Assembly (NCBI RefSeq): GCF_900104475.1
Contig: NZ_FNJR01000002.1
Coordinates: 248,001-312,000, forward strand
Direction: 5' to 3'
Length of the DNA stretch: 64,000 bases
From: Actinopolyspora xinjiangensis
GTDB lineage: Bacteria > Actinomycetota > Actinomycetes > Mycobacteriales > Pseudonocardiaceae
A program made the position numbers and the translations under genes. The notes beneath the pieces were generated by a model. It was not told the origin of the DNA. It did not search any database and was given only the letters and a program-made list of their open reading frames with translations. The stretch's first letter is position 1; each line of letters starts with the position of its first letter. Below, piece by piece: positions 51,554 to 56,474 of this stretch.

Positions 51554-51947
51554 TCTCAGTCTCCGTGTGTGCGGGGCCTACAGATCGCAAGGAATGGAAT
51601 CCTTGCCTCTGCCCGGTCCATCCCCGCGTGCGCGGGGCCTACGCCTCCGACCGTGTCTCGGTCTACGACGTGGCGGGTCCATCCCCGCGTGCGCGGGGCC
51701 TACTTCGGTGCAAGCGATACCGCTAGCGCGTAGACGGGTCCATCCCCGCGTGCGCGGGGCCTACCAGCGCCCCGCCGGACTTCTCTCCCACCCAGCGGGT
51801 CCATCCCCGCATGAGCGGGGCCTACCACAACAGCAACGGCTCCACCGATCGCGGGTTGGGTCCATCCCCGCATGCGCGGGGCCTACCGGATCAACATATT
51901 CAAAAAAACAAGGGAAGTAGGTCCATCCCCGCATGAGCGGGGCCTAC
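51554..51947 (-). CRISPR. Type I-E-like CRISPR array 1, 7 repeats and 6 spacers
   Basis: Repeats are 28 nt with 33-nt spacers (61-nt period, repeat ends at 51581, 51642, 51703, 51764, 51825, 51886, 51947). On the minus strand a repeat begins GTAGGCCCCGCGCACG and ends GCGGGGATGGACC, a type I-E repeat of actinomycetes. The leftmost repeat (51554-51581) is degenerate in one half, marking the old, distal end; the leader is therefore to the right. The three leader-proximal repeats carry variants in the loop (CATGAG, CATGCG). The leader-proximal spacer (51887-51919) is about one third GC, unlike the host. No cas genes are in the window. Confidence 0.97.
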
Positions 51948-52017
51948 CTTGTTGGCCTGCGATCTTAACAGTGCTTTCCCGCTGTGGGAATCACTTTTGT
52001 TCCGGGTAGGAGGGTGG
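51948..52017 (-). promoter_or_regulatory. Probable CRISPR array 1 leader
   Basis: An AT-richer 70-bp segment directly right of the array. Read on the minus strand, it contains AAAGTGATTCCCACAGCG and TTAAGATCGCAGGCCAACAAG-like sequence running up to the first repeat, as expected of a type I-E leader. It is squeezed between the array and the end of the Imm1 gene, whose transcription runs into the array. Confidence 0.6.
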
Positions 52018-52476
52018 TCAGTACCACTGGCCGGGTTGCCATTCGACGCGGGTGGGGCGTTGTCCGGTCCGGCAGTACTCGGTGATGGCTTCGCGGACTT
52101 GCTCGAGGGGCAGTGCGGCCGAGTTGGGGAAGTCCGCTCCGTCCGGGTCGAGGGGCAGGATCGGCGCATTCGCTTCGGCATCGGGGTTGTAAGAATCGAC
52201 CACACGTCCGTGTGGAGTGTGGGGATCTACGTAGTTCAGCGCGCCCCAACCGGTGTTCGGGGAGCTGGACACGAGCAGCCGAGCGTCCGGGAATTCCGGT
52301 TCACCGTCGAGGACGAACCGGCACGGTCGGTCCCACACGAACACTTCACAGACCGGGCGGGGTGGATTCTCGGTGATCTCGCGGACCAGCGCGTCGAGTT
52401 CGTCGTCGGTGTGGGCGTGTCGCAGGTCGCGGCGGTAGAGCACCGACACCACGGTGCCTGTTTCAACGGTGGTCAC
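52018..52476 (-). CDS. Imm1 family immunity protein
   Basis: A 152-residue soluble protein with the Imm1 pattern: an N-terminal part around HTDDELDALVREITENPP, a middle 'ARLLVSSSPNTGWGALNYVD', and the diagnostic C-terminus FPNSAALPLEQVREAITEYC followed by TGQRPTRVEW. Imm1 proteins neutralise deaminase toxins in polymorphic toxin systems. The start is a GTG (52476) overlapping the deaminase stop by 4 bp and with GAGGAAAGG upstream; it is translationally coupled to the toxin, as expected for an antidote. A longer upstream frame is not supported. Confidence 0.85.
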   Translation of the reverse strand: MTTVETGTVVSVLYRRDLRHAHTDDELDALVREITENPPRPVCEVFVWDRPCRFVLDGEPEFPDARLLVSSSPNTGWGALNYVDPHTPHGRVVDSYNPDAEANAPILPLDPDGADFPNSAALPLEQVREAITEYCRTGQRPTRVEWQPGQWY

Positions 52477-53201
52477 GGTCTGGCCTTTCCTCGCAGCGTG
52501 ATCGTTTCGGGCGTTCCTGGGTGCCACACTTTCAGGGTGGAGCCTTTCGGCAGGATCTCCGGTACGGCCTTTTCGCACCCTCGGCAGAGTTCGTTGTTGA
52601 GTACCACGACGCCATAAGTCTGCCCTGCTTGCCGCATCATGAGCGCGTATTTCACCTCAACGTGCATCGTCACGGTCGGTTCGCCACGATCGTCGGTGGG
52701 AAACCGTTCGGAATTGTGCAGGATCAGCCGTGCTTGCTCGGACAGTTTTGGGTCTCGCCCGCTGTTGACCTGAAGTTCGGTGCCGTCTTGGTCGTAGGTG
52801 AGTCCGGTGGTTTGTCCGCCGGTGTGTTCGGGCAGTCGTTGGCGCACCTGTTCGATCCAGGAGTGGTCGTGGGAGGTGTGGGTGGGTATTCGGGGATGGG
52901 TGGAGGGGTGGGGCAGGCTCGGTGGGGGTTGGTCGTCGGTCATGCCGAGGGTGGCGAGGTAGCTCACCAGGTGTTCTCGGGTGGTCTCGCTCAGGGCGAG
53001 GACGTCGTCGGTGAGTTCGCGGGTTTGTTCGAGCAGTGTGACGGCTTCGGTCAGGTCGGGCGAGGTGCTGCCCTGGCCGATCTCGGCGAGGGTGGGTAGG
53101 GCGTATTCCTCGACCCAGGCCCGTACTCGGTGCAGTTGTTCGGGGGGTAGTCGTGTGAGCATTCCGGCGAGGGTGTTTCCCATGTCTTCCACGTGGGACA
53201 T
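52473..53201 (-). CDS. DddA/SCP1.201-like cytosine deaminase toxin
   Basis: A 242-residue protein. Residues 1-90 are helical (LTRLPPEQLHRVRAWVEEY); 91-113 is a Pro/His/Thr-rich linker; about 115-242 is a SCP1.201-type deaminase domain: LPEHTGGQTTGLTYDQDGT, SGRDP, then HVE (His180, Glu182) and LCRGC (Cys206, Cys209), the zinc ligands and catalytic Glu of the DddA clade, ending STLKVWHPG. Such domains deaminate cytosine in nucleic acid. No signal peptide is present, so delivery, if any, would need a secretion system. The ATG at 53201 has GAAGGAGGATCC upstream. It is the middle gene between a small helical protein and Imm1. Confidence 0.87.
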   Translation of the reverse strand: MSHVEDMGNTLAGMLTRLPPEQLHRVRAWVEEYALPTLAEIGQGSTSPDLTEAVTLLEQTRELTDDVLALSETTREHLVSYLATLGMTDDQPPPSLPHPSTHPRIPTHTSHDHSWIEQVRQRLPEHTGGQTTGLTYDQDGTELQVNSGRDPKLSEQARLILHNSERFPTDDRGEPTVTMHVEVKYALMMRQAGQTYGVVVLNNELCRGCEKAVPEILPKGSTLKVWHPGTPETITLRGKARP

Positions 53202-53214
53202 GCCGGATCCTCCT

Positions 53215-53463
53215 TCACAGCACGGCGGAGAACGAGCGGACGTGCTCGAGGGCATACATGAGCGCCTGGACGGCCTCGCCGGTCTTGTCGTGGGCGAGGC
53301 CGAACAGCCGGGACGCCTGGTGCACGTCGTCGTTGGTGCTGGTTCCGGCCATCTGGTGCAGCAGTGCGCGTAGCTCGTCCAGCGTGGTCCGTATGGCTTG
53401 TAACTCGCCTGCGGGCGCGGTGTCGGTGATCTGTTGGAGCTGTCCACGGATCTCGTCGAGCAT
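53215..53463 (-). CDS. Small helical protein, partner of the deaminase toxin
   Basis: 82 residues, predicted as two or three amphipathic helices: LDEIRGQLQQITDTAPAGEL, then ELQAIRTTLDELRALLHQM, and a second half with HDKTGEAVQALMYALEHVRS. Size and all-helical character resemble WXG100/DUF6244-type small proteins found just before deaminase toxins in streptomycetes; these are thought to assist delivery. ATG 53463 (a GTG lies one codon earlier) with AGGAGAACCC upstream. 13 bp separate it from the toxin gene. Function is inferred from position only. Confidence 0.6.
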   Translation of the reverse strand: MLDEIRGQLQQITDTAPAGELQAIRTTLDELRALLHQMAGTSTNDDVHQASRLFGLAHDKTGEAVQALMYALEHVRSFSAVL

Positions 53464-54741: not shown

Positions 54742-54820
54742 CCATGAGACAAACTCAATACTTCGATCGAGTGATCTCCTGGAACAGAGCCAGATTCGGA
54801 GATTAGGGTTTGTCTCATGG
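54742..54820. promoter_or_regulatory. Perfect inverted repeat spanning the XRE start codon
   Basis: CCATGAGACAAAC (54742-54754) and its exact complement GTTTGTCTCATGG (54808-54820) are 53 bp apart. The right arm contains the XRE ATG (54817), so the transcript is leaderless or nearly so (TAGGGT box at 54804). The left arm lies in the divergent promoter (TTGAGT, 18 bp, TACTGT on the minus strand). The XRE protein is the likely binder. Confidence 0.7.
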
Positions 54821-55671
54821 CACGCACCGCTAAGCATTCGCCACGGGTTCGAGCACTCGGCGCTGAACTGCGTGAAGCCCGCGAAGCAGCGGGAATGACC
54901 ATGCGAGAAGTGGCGCAAAGACTCGGATGGCACCACTCGAAGTACGCGAGGTTCGAGTCCGGCGACCAACCACCCACCCCGGAACAGTCATCCGCGATCC
55001 TGGCGACCTTCGGCGCGTCGGAGGCCGAACGTGAACGACTCACGGACATGGCAGCCGACATCGCCAACGGCGACGCGAACTGGCTGAAAGCCGGAACCGG
55101 TCACGACGACCTGACTACACTGCTTGAGTTCGAGCGCACCGCGACCAACATCGTGGATGTTTCGCCGTTGCTCATCCCAGGACTGCTACAAACCTCGGAC
55201 TACGCCCGAACGATCATGGCCAATGAGACCCCTGGCGACATCGAACGTCTGGTGGCCATGAGGATCGGACGCCGCGATGTACTCACACGCCCGAAACCGG
55301 TGGAGCTGACCGCGATCATCCTCGAAACCGCACTTCGGCGGCCAATGGGTGGACGCGAGGTAATGGCCGACCAACTGCGCTACATCGCCAAAATCGCATC
55401 CGACCACAACAACGTCACCGTGCACGTCCTCCCGGATACCGGTAAGTGGACTCCGGCGCACATCGGACCGTTTATCCTGTTCGACTTCGCGAAAGCAGCA
55501 CCGATCGTGCACTTCGAGCACTTGAGCAGTTCCGCGTTCTTGTCCAATACCGGGGACATCAAAGTTCACCGGGAAGCGGCGGTTAACCTCCGTGAGGCAG
55601 CGATGAACCCGACCGAGTCCATCGAGTTCATCGCTCAGTGCGCTGCTGAAATGGAGGACAACCACGAATGA
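54817..55671 (+). CDS. XRE family regulator with DUF5753 (Scr1-type) domain
   Basis: A 284-residue regulator. The HTH at residues about 12-65: RALGAELREAREAAGMTMRE, VAQRLGWHHSKYARFESG. The remainder (about 95-275) is the DUF5753 domain with 'LLIPGLLQTSDYARTIM', VTVHVLPDTGKWTP and HFEHLSSSAFL. In streptomycetes such proteins pair with a small DUF397 protein (WhiJ/BldB-like system) to control development or act as toxin-antitoxin-like modules. ATG 54817 is within the operator. GC content is lower than in the housekeeping genes here. It overlaps the DUF397 gene by 4 bp. Confidence 0.92.
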   Translation: MARTAKHSPRVRALGAELREAREAAGMTMREVAQRLGWHHSKYARFESGDQPPTPEQSSAILATFGASEAERERLTDMAADIANGDANWLKAGTGHDDLTTLLEFERTATNIVDVSPLLIPGLLQTSDYARTIMANETPGDIERLVAMRIGRRDVLTRPKPVELTAIILETALRRPMGGREVMADQLRYIAKIASDHNNVTVHVLPDTGKWTPAHIGPFILFDFAKAAPIVHFEHLSSSAFLSNTGDIKVHREAAVNLREAAMNPTESIEFIAQCAAEMEDNHE

Positions 55672-55856
55672 CAGCACCCCCCGAGGGCTGGCGCAAGTCG
55701 AGCCGCTCCTCGAAAACTAGTTGCGTCGAGGTCGGCCGCATCAACGACGGCGCGGCGGTGCGCGACACCAAGGACCGCTCGGCCGGATACTTCACCACCA
55801 CCGGCCAGCAGTGGGCCGCGTTCATCGATGCGGTGAAGAGCAACCGGTTCGACTGA
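55668..55856 (+). CDS. DUF397 small protein
   Basis: 62 residues with the DUF397 pattern: GWRKSSRSSKTSCVEVG, then VRDTKDRSAGYFTTTGQQWA and 'FIDAVKSNRFD'. The ATG overlaps the XRE stop by 4 bp. DUF397 proteins are the partners of adjacent XRE-DUF5753 regulators. Followed by a strong bidirectional terminator. Confidence 0.92.
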   Translation: MTAPPEGWRKSSRSSKTSCVEVGRINDGAAVRDTKDRSAGYFTTTGQQWAAFIDAVKSNRFD

Positions 55857-55907: not shown

Positions 55908-56057
55908 TGTGCCTCCCCGCCTGCACGGGGCCTACTGCGGTGGCGCTGGCCCACACCGACGACGAGGGGGTCCATCCCCGCACGCGCGGGGCCTACGACA
56001 TGGAACGTGCCCGCCGCGCGGTCGCCACGGGTCCATCCCCGCACGCGCGGGGCCTAC
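55908..56057 (-). CRISPR. Short CRISPR array 2, 3 repeats and 2 spacers
   Basis: Same 28-nt repeat and 33-nt spacers as array 1: repeats at 55908-55935 (degenerate, distal), 55969-55996 and 56030-56057. On the minus strand they begin GTAGGCCCCGCGC. Both intact repeats carry the CACGCG loop variant, different from array 1. No leader-like AT-rich sequence follows on the right, so this may be an orphan or decayed array. Confidence 0.93.
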
Positions 56058-56474
56058 ACTCACTGCGCTGGGATTCTAGCGGCGCGAACGCGCGCTGGGA
56101 ACCACTTCGTCACACCCCGTCGGACACCCCGCGTGCCAACCCGCCGGAGTCTCGACTCCCACCGCCGTCCACCGCACCGGCATCGAGTTCACCACCGACA
56201 CCCAAGCATCGCTACCCCCACATCCCAGCACCCCCAACCTCCCAACACCGCCAACCCCGCGTCCACCGCCCGGGACGTCCTCGCGGCCCCACCGAACTCT
56301 CCCGAGGACGCTGTCCCGGTTCGGAGTACCGGACCGCCGATGCGCCCGGAGAGCGGTGCGCGGCCCCGGCGGGAATCCACGGCACCCCACCTCGACCTGT
56401 GGTCCGAACCTCCCTCGGACAACCGCCCCGGATGCCATACTCGTGGTGTGGGGGCGGGATCGAGAGGCCGAGAG
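56058..56474. other. Gene-free stretch right of CRISPR array 2
   Basis: 417 bp with no supported gene. Around 56180-56270 it is C-rich with short tandem-like runs (CACCCAAGC, CACCCCCAACC). It may be the decayed leader side of array 2 and the promoter of the following gene. Confidence 0.35.

Follow-up and report, generated by a model that had tools for sequence, protein, structure and literature searches.

We describe here a three-gene locus in a 64,000-nucleotide stretch of the genome of Actinopolyspora xinjiangensis (hereafter the window; contig NZ_FNJR01000002.1, positions 248,001 to 312,000), a salt-loving soil bacterium whose assembly comprises 5.04 Mb in 33 contigs. The locus encodes an 82-amino acid (aa) helical protein, a DddA-like deaminase toxin of 242 aa and an Imm1 immunity protein. 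Deaminase and Imm1 form an already known pair. What is new, as judged from profile comparisons, is the relation of the N-terminal third of the toxin to the 82-aa protein and to two small proteins, here called A and B, which are encoded beside a soluble FtsK/EssC-like ATPase. We consider it on balance probable that this is a polymorphic toxin, in which the Esx-like N-domain and the 82-aa partner address the deaminase to the soluble ATPase for export, and Imm1 protects the producer. Such a system would represent an undescribed actinobacterial route for the handling, and probably the export, of toxins.

All three genes lie where the initial annotation had placed them, on the minus strand of the window: the small protein (P0001) at 53463-53215, the deaminase (P0002) at 53201-52473 and Imm1 (P0003; 152 aa, GTG start) at 52476-52018. 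The ATG codon of the deaminase gene is directly preceded by GGAGG, and its stop shares 4 bp (GTGA) with the start of the Imm1 gene, i.e. the overlap noticed before. The toxin consists of (i) a helical N-domain (residues 1-86; 52944-53201), supported by hhalign and genome searches, (ii) a proline-rich linker (residues 87-113; 52863-52943), whose boundaries were taken from the Pfam match and the alignment, and (iii) a catalytic domain (residues 114-240; 52482-52862), which matches the DddA-like family PF14428 (E=2e-23; 83.2 bits, with a cut-off of 25). The assignment of residues 115-242 to the SCP1.201/DddA profile was thus borne out, and the residues on which it had been based (His180 and Glu182 of the HVE motif at 52656-52664, Cys206 and Cys209 of the CxxC motif at 52575-52586, TTGL at residue 131 and SGRDP at residue 147) are all present. 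In an alignment of 12 deaminase sequences Glu182, Cys206 and Cys209 are invariant, and His180 occurs in at least 90%. The HVE motif provides a zinc ligand and the catalytic acid of the deaminase fold, and the cysteines of CxxC are zinc ligands; members of the DddA-like family vary in their preference for single or double strands.

The closest solved structure to the catalytic part found in the PDB was 8w20 (E=2.6e-14), which we take for UmbC1, an umbrella protein of Streptomyces tipped with a deaminase. In E. coli, the toxin domain of UmbC1 causes C-G to T-A changes; it has a partner of the Imm1 family, and the UmbC1-UmbD1 pair combines the same catalytic and immunity families as the window locus (PMC11062931). 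Imm1 has also been catalogued with SCP1.201 deaminases (PMC3482391). The window Imm1 matches PF14430 (E=2.4e-17), as the initial annotation had proposed, and gave no useful match in a PDB profile search. An open reading frame matching an Imm1 profile directly follows the deaminase in 30 of 30 loci from the bacterial family (L005-L034) and in 30 of 30 loci from the genus (L064-L093); the profile used for these 60 loci was built locally, and Pfam confirmed the assignment for the four PF14428 loci of the window genome, each of which is followed by an Imm1. In a further locus (L218, G001:C4) one deaminase gene precedes three consecutive Imm1 frames and a deaminase fragment, i.e. an immunity array.

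The deaminase is indeed free-standing, without a large carrier. It differs in this respect from DddA/SCP1.201 carrier toxins (8w20 has 1368 aa, and the genes are 3.6-4.2 kb long in the three that were opened of nine Streptomyces plasmid matches), since the whole window toxin has 242 aa and a short helical N-domain. Yet it does have an N-terminal module: residues 1-86 appear to form a helical domain of a trafficking type, which shares its family with the 82-aa protein (53215-53463).

This relationship was revealed by hhalign comparison of five groups of sequences: 22 A proteins, 15 B proteins, 15 toxin N-domains from outside the genus, 30 from inside it and 23 small proteins of the genus. The N-domains from outside the genus paired with those of the genus with a probability of 98.7%, with A at 98.5% and with B at 97.1%. 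The small proteins matched the outside N-domains (96.8%), A (96.6%) and the genus N-domains (96.5%), and lower values were obtained for A with B (93.0%), A with the genus N-domains (88.9%) and B with the genus N-domains (81.4%), the weakest pairing being that of B with the small proteins (39.6%). The alignments span 74-88 columns, and the controls (39 column shuffles and, for seven of the pairings, a single reversal each) did not exceed 10%. A and B had been chosen by place and motif, whereas the toxin N-domains and small proteins were both collected with one mixed iterated profile grown from the toxin N-domain, and the likeness between these two groups is therefore not fully independent; limited to the named loci, it still reaches 84.8% over 78 columns. 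A direct BLASTP comparison between small protein and N-domain gave no match, and the relation is visible to profiles only. Searches of the PDB with the helical family returned what look like unrelated coiled coils and TPRs, and an ESAT-6-like entry (12fa) only at E=0.51. The proteins of the family have 82-88 aa and were judged to be helical by sequence alone; WXG100/Esx proteins are two-helix proteins of about 100 aa. Taken together, the 82-aa protein is most readily described as a free-standing relative of the deaminase N-domain, both being related in profile to A and B. The label DUF6244 initially suggested for it found no backing: there was no Pfam match above the cut-off and no NCBIfam match, in libraries whose content of a DUF6244 model is unchecked, and the term did not occur in the literature searched.

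Relatives of the 82-aa protein were detected (E<=0.01) in 16 of the 150 family genomes sampled. Among the other Actinopolyspora loci, they accompany 17 of the 18 toxins with a window-type N-domain (partial or split in L068, L073 and L090) and none of the remaining 12, three of which are fragments. Outside the genus, five of the 11 matches (in G004, G046, G079, G082 and G086) directly adjoin an ATPase of the FtsK/SpoIIIE type; the search was therefore extended to the ATPase cassette. The role of delivery or chaperone partner suggested earlier for the small protein has thereby become likelier and more specific, in view of the kinship of this protein with the toxin N-domain and with the ATPase-side proteins, but such a partner is not universal. 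The window genome holds a further free-standing helical protein (L210:3523-4440, G000:C21) in a region resembling an integrative element, with an FtsK-like frame (C21:150327) about 4 kb away. In another genome (G012), small helical genes form a tandem pair and a triplet (L219, L220), beside which no toxin domain was recognised.

The cassette comprises A, with about 86 aa, followed in most of the loci listed by B (82-87 aa) and then by an ATPase of about 890-1015 aa; in several loci a protein of 150-330 aa comes before A. In the window genome, A is located at C19:329489-329749 (L154:8990-9250) and the ATPase at C19:330216-333182 (L154:9717-12683); B was not called there. The ATPase matches FtsK_SpoIIIE PF01580 (E=2.6e-21 for P0013), and a second representative (P0015) gave NCBIfam matches to EccC_a (E=2.1e-28) and EssC (E=5.4e-25) that lie far below the curated cut-offs. 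A single Walker A motif lies midway along the ATPase. The N-terminal transmembrane helices that distinguish EccC and EssC were not found, the hydropathy maximum being 1.28 in the ATPase of the window genome and 1.41 in P0015; P0013 reaches 2.21, but in mid-protein, at residue 310. At the position of B, one genome from another family of the order (G248) encodes a 359-aa protein with a helical-looking start and a long proline-rich tail (L270:6419-7498). Two genomes (G034 and G068; loci L215 and L245) have a second, paralogous ATPase (43% identity) with its own A-like gene and a downstream helical gene.

The distribution of the ATPase and of the helical family was then compared. The ATPase is present at E<1e-200 in 119 of the 150 family genomes; the other 31 contain weak matches only (E>1e-20; 15 genomes) or none at 1e-10 (16 genomes). 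With alignment A2 and a threshold of E<=1e-4, helical matches were obtained in 118 of the 119 ATPase-positive genomes and in none of the 31 negative ones (Fisher p 2.6e-31). The single positive genome lacking such a match (G119) has, as read by eye, a divergent A-like gene directly before the ATPase. By genus, 35 of 46 are positive. Class-wide, the ATPase was called at E<=1e-60 in 16 of 296 genomes (two of them of the same family), all 16 with helical matches, and in each of the 14 ATPase-positive genomes outside the family the sole helical match is on the strand of the ATPase, at a distance of 1.0-2.5 kb from its aligned part. These genome searches score a limited number of candidates per genome.

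That the helical domain may serve trafficking is suggested most strongly by its exchange for a membrane-type anchor, in most cases, where the ATPase is missing. In the ATPase-negative genomes, 15 deaminase places were found in seven of the 31, and 13 of the N-termini could be read (L237 and L253 could not). Twelve of these 13 lack the helical domain and carry instead a hydrophobic segment (19-residue hydropathy 2.05-2.74), the other one being L255. An AxA motif occurs in 10 of the 12 anchored deaminases, 12-28 residues past the hydrophobic stretch and before an acidic segment, often with a cysteine; as the distance exceeds what is usual for a standard signal peptide, cleavage is uncertain. In the ATPase-positive genomes the hydrophobic segment was seen in none of 28 readable deaminases (p 1.6e-9 against the 12 of 13 above), and the helical domain in 22 of 29 (E<0.01). 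The set of 29 comprises L005-L034 except L033; the loci of the window genome were left out, as were L214-L227, L248, L249 and L094, which had been fetched partly for their helical matches. The seven loci without a helical call are L015 (where the domain lies in another frame), L016, L018, L025 (cut off), L027, L028 and L032. Thus the same deaminase-Imm1 pair mostly follows a helical domain in genomes that have the ATPase and an anchor in those that do not.

The N-domain is not confined to deaminases. A scan of ten chosen helical-domain proteins without a DddA domain gave three matches to CdiA_C (E=1.4e-17, 2e-4 and 3e-3, the first alone above the cut-off), one to Imm1 (E=1.3e-17) and no confident match for six; one helical N-domain is carried by DddA, CdiA_C and other, unassigned C-termini, as in polymorphic toxins. 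In L213, L242 and L228 a separate small helical protein is encoded directly upstream, as in the window; downstream, a small gene comes next in L213, L221, L241 and L243, and none was called right after the helical-domain gene of L228. In two loci (L212:2094-2795 and L224:2050-2766) an Imm1 is itself joined to the same N-domain, and no adjoining deaminase was found; these Imm1 proteins may be handled by the same system.

Exchange is seen at the other end of the toxin as well. One paralogous locus of the window genome (L001) is 98% identical in DNA to the window across N-domain and linker (371 bp), and 96% identical across 960 bp that lie upstream. In blocks of 20 columns, the two toxins show an identity of 0.9-1.0 between residues 21 and 140, approximately, and of 0.55-0.71 thereafter; the two Imm1 proteins have 0.25-0.6, with an identical last block. 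This is the pattern of a toxin-immunity core swapped, or evolving fast, behind a conserved front end. In six Actinopolyspora genomes there are 38 PF14428 places, and 30 loci besides the window were read.

On these grounds we propose that residues 1-86 would act as a short helical targeting domain of the Esx/WXG100-like kind and form a helical bundle with the 82-aa protein. This putative heteromer would be recognised by the soluble three-domain FtsK/EssC-like ATPase encoded elsewhere in the genome, beside A (and, in relatives, also B), and the ATPase would unfold the toxin or drive it out of the cell, alone or via a further channel; its docking on a canonical type VII channel is possible. The targets would be kin or competitors lacking a matching Imm1, where the toxin would deaminate, presumably, DNA, and in the producer Imm1 would inhibit it. 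The deaminase and Imm1 domains, the kinship of the helical proteins, their proximity to the ATPase and the exchanges at both ends of the toxin are computational results, whereas the heteromer, its recognition, the export, the DNA target and the action of Imm1 are inferred.

An FtsK-family ATPase is also a feature of the system of LXG toxins and Lap partners. These toxins of type VIIb secretion need WXG100-like targeting partners, Lap1/Lap2 (DUF3130/DUF3958), and resemble the system described here in combining a polymorphic toxin, a conserved helical N-domain and an adjoining gene for a small WXG100-like partner (PMC9600955). In contrast to LXG, the partner is itself a relative of the N-domain, which has only about 86 aa, the system is actinobacterial, the soluble ATPase is encoded elsewhere, the WxG and YxxxD/E motifs are lacking, and export is what we infer. 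A table footnote applies the name 'mobile versions of T7SS' to WXG proteins that occur solo, together with a YueA-like ATPase of a distinct kind (PMC3482391; T7SS, type VII secretion system), and in type III-A extensions of CoCoNuT loci two WXG100 proteins accompany an EssC-like ATPase devoid of transmembrane helices (PMC11090510). The ATPase of our cassette is of this soluble EssC/YueA type, being FtsK/EssC-like, with no clear transmembrane helices, one mid-protein Walker A and WXG100-like partners; polymorphic toxins bearing the same helical N-domain are not mentioned in the parts of the two articles considered, whereas here the toxins share the domain of the partners. Canonical T7SSa and T7SSc-j also pair an FtsK-type ATPase with WXG100-like partners, but that ATPase is membrane-bound (PMC11217815). 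No published description of the N-domain, the small partner or their tie to the ATPase was found in the literature searched, outside of which lie most subscription papers.

The existence of canonical type VII systems in the same cells raises the question of whether the toxin is simply an ordinary substrate of EccBCDE/MycP, for which the small protein would be a targeting factor of the Esx/Lap type, the soluble ATPase being unrelated or accessory. This appears decidedly unlikely to us, even though EccC scores above its curated cut-off in all 10 Actinopolyspora genomes, P0016, one of the core A proteins, has a weak match to WXG100 (E=0.011 in Pfam and 0.008 in NCBIfam, both below cut-off), and the LXG precedent shows WXG100-like partners at work on toxins. 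EccC is also present above cut-off in 31 of 31 family genomes devoid of the soluble ATPase, in none of which the helical family was matched at E<=1e-4. Moreover, WxG is absent from all 60 A, B and small sequences (0/22, 0/15 and 0/23) and occurs in two of 45 toxin N-domains, and none of 105 helical sequences has YxxxD/E in its last 30 residues (the looser [YF]xxx[DE] is found in one). Because these motifs are lacking and the helical toxins do not follow canonical EccC in their distribution, the toxin was not filed as a T7SS substrate. A role inside the cell, in which the ATPase cassette would sense or relay a signal and free the deaminase from Imm1 (abortive infection), is likewise unlikely. 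It would be consistent with a soluble ATPase, with the genes found beside ATPase relatives (WXG100, CARF, VWA, PP2C and kinase genes in L179 from Caballeronia; Hsp70 and GrpE genes and an 86-aa protein, P0020, A/B-like by eye, in L178 from Rhodococcus) and with the similar ATPase and WXG100 proteins that extend CoCoNuT defence loci (PMC11090510). The anchors of the ATPase-less genomes, most of them with AxA beyond, point outward, however; neither the deaminase nor Imm1 has a match in PADLOC, and clustered regularly interspaced short palindromic repeats (CRISPR) occur in only five of the 30 other genus toxin loci read. Core swapping, CdiA_C and Imm1 also argue against intracellular defence, as they typify toxins used between bacteria.

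We regard it as very improbable that the toxin belongs to a decaying or type II toxin-antitoxin-like cassette and never leaves the cell, its helical domain serving only to dimerise or stabilise it. The window toxin has no signal peptide (hydropathy maximum 0.59), and several genus loci are fragments or contain a stop (G038:C2:772261, L078, L081, L082), as such a cassette might; nevertheless, the N-domain is found in 10 of 10 genus genomes and is free of internal stops in 33 of 35 places, several toxin types share it, and there is the tie to the ATPase. Export through the soluble ATPase remains the reading that we prefer, and a number of observations weigh against it. None of the three ATPases tested has a clear transmembrane helix, no membrane partner gene and no EccB/D/E was recognised beside the ATPase (gene calls were read, with no profile search), and the occurrence of ATPase relatives in defence-like loci fits an intracellular role. 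Among L005-L034 a separate upstream small helical gene was called only in the genus loci L023, L024 and L026, and in L001 the small protein is, as read by eye, a short remnant only. The count of 118 of 119 ATPase-positive genomes is partly circular, A being itself a helical match, and the informative part is thus the 31 empty genomes. Their zero marks a limit of sensitivity, because one of them (G074) contains the helical-domain deaminase L255 (E=8e-7), which escaped the genome search. The 31 represent 12 genera, and since the genomes are related the p-values overstate their independence; in addition, 11 of the 22 helical-positive deaminase loci had supplied rows to the helical model. Class-wide, 14 of the 30 helical-positive genomes (of 296) have no ATPase call at E<=1e-60: 13 are from family f19, in which the cassette occurs near this threshold, and one is from f24, and 13 of the 14 are assemblies of at least 190 contigs (G241 is a single contig). 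A transposase-like gene was noticed about 1.4 kb upstream of L255 (our own reading).

More tentatively, and with somewhat less confidence than would make it probable, we suggest that many actinobacteria possess a second type VII-like toxin machine, poor in membrane components and independent of the canonical type VII system of the same cells. It would consist of the soluble three-domain FtsK/EssC-like ATPase and two Esx-like proteins and serve a family of short polymorphic toxins, among them deaminases and CdiA_C-type nucleases, with N-domains that would be copies of its own small subunits. If our reading is correct, it names a delivery module for many short, carrier-free actinobacterial DddA-type deaminases, the source family of base-editing enzymes, provides a function for the soluble EssC-like ATPase of most of the family genomes sampled, and supplies a short sequence tag for finding further toxins. 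The role of soluble EssC-like ATPases would become directly testable.

The CRISPR neighbours noted in the initial annotation are real: plus-strand CRISPR-like arrays of six and two repeats, with a 61-bp spacing, are located at 51615-51948 and 55969-56058, the larger one directly downstream of Imm1. Similar repeats flank a paralogue on contig C21 (L065), as well as L075 and L091, and two of the five repeat-bearing genus loci have a single repeat. The anti-phage role that had been considered on account of these neighbours finds little support in view of the counts given above, and the CRISPR link was dropped. Assignment to a defence system by PADLOC was rejected as well; the small protein matched HamA (E=0.0096) and the ATPase matched SspH, mads_8 and HerA, and only a stretch or the ATPase core was covered. 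A phage origin was discarded, the deaminase having no match among 50,697 phage records.

Upstream of the toxin operon, three overlapping small genes (P0010-P0012; 53768-54668), the first with an N-terminal hydrophobic stretch seen by eye, are 92-100% conserved in a second copy in the same genome (L064). They were dropped as a part of the module, being missing or scattered in many loci. Beyond them, at 54817-55856, lie overlapping genes for a helix-turn-helix regulator and a small protein, presumably of the XRE/DUF5753 and DUF397 types, which are divergent from the toxin operon.

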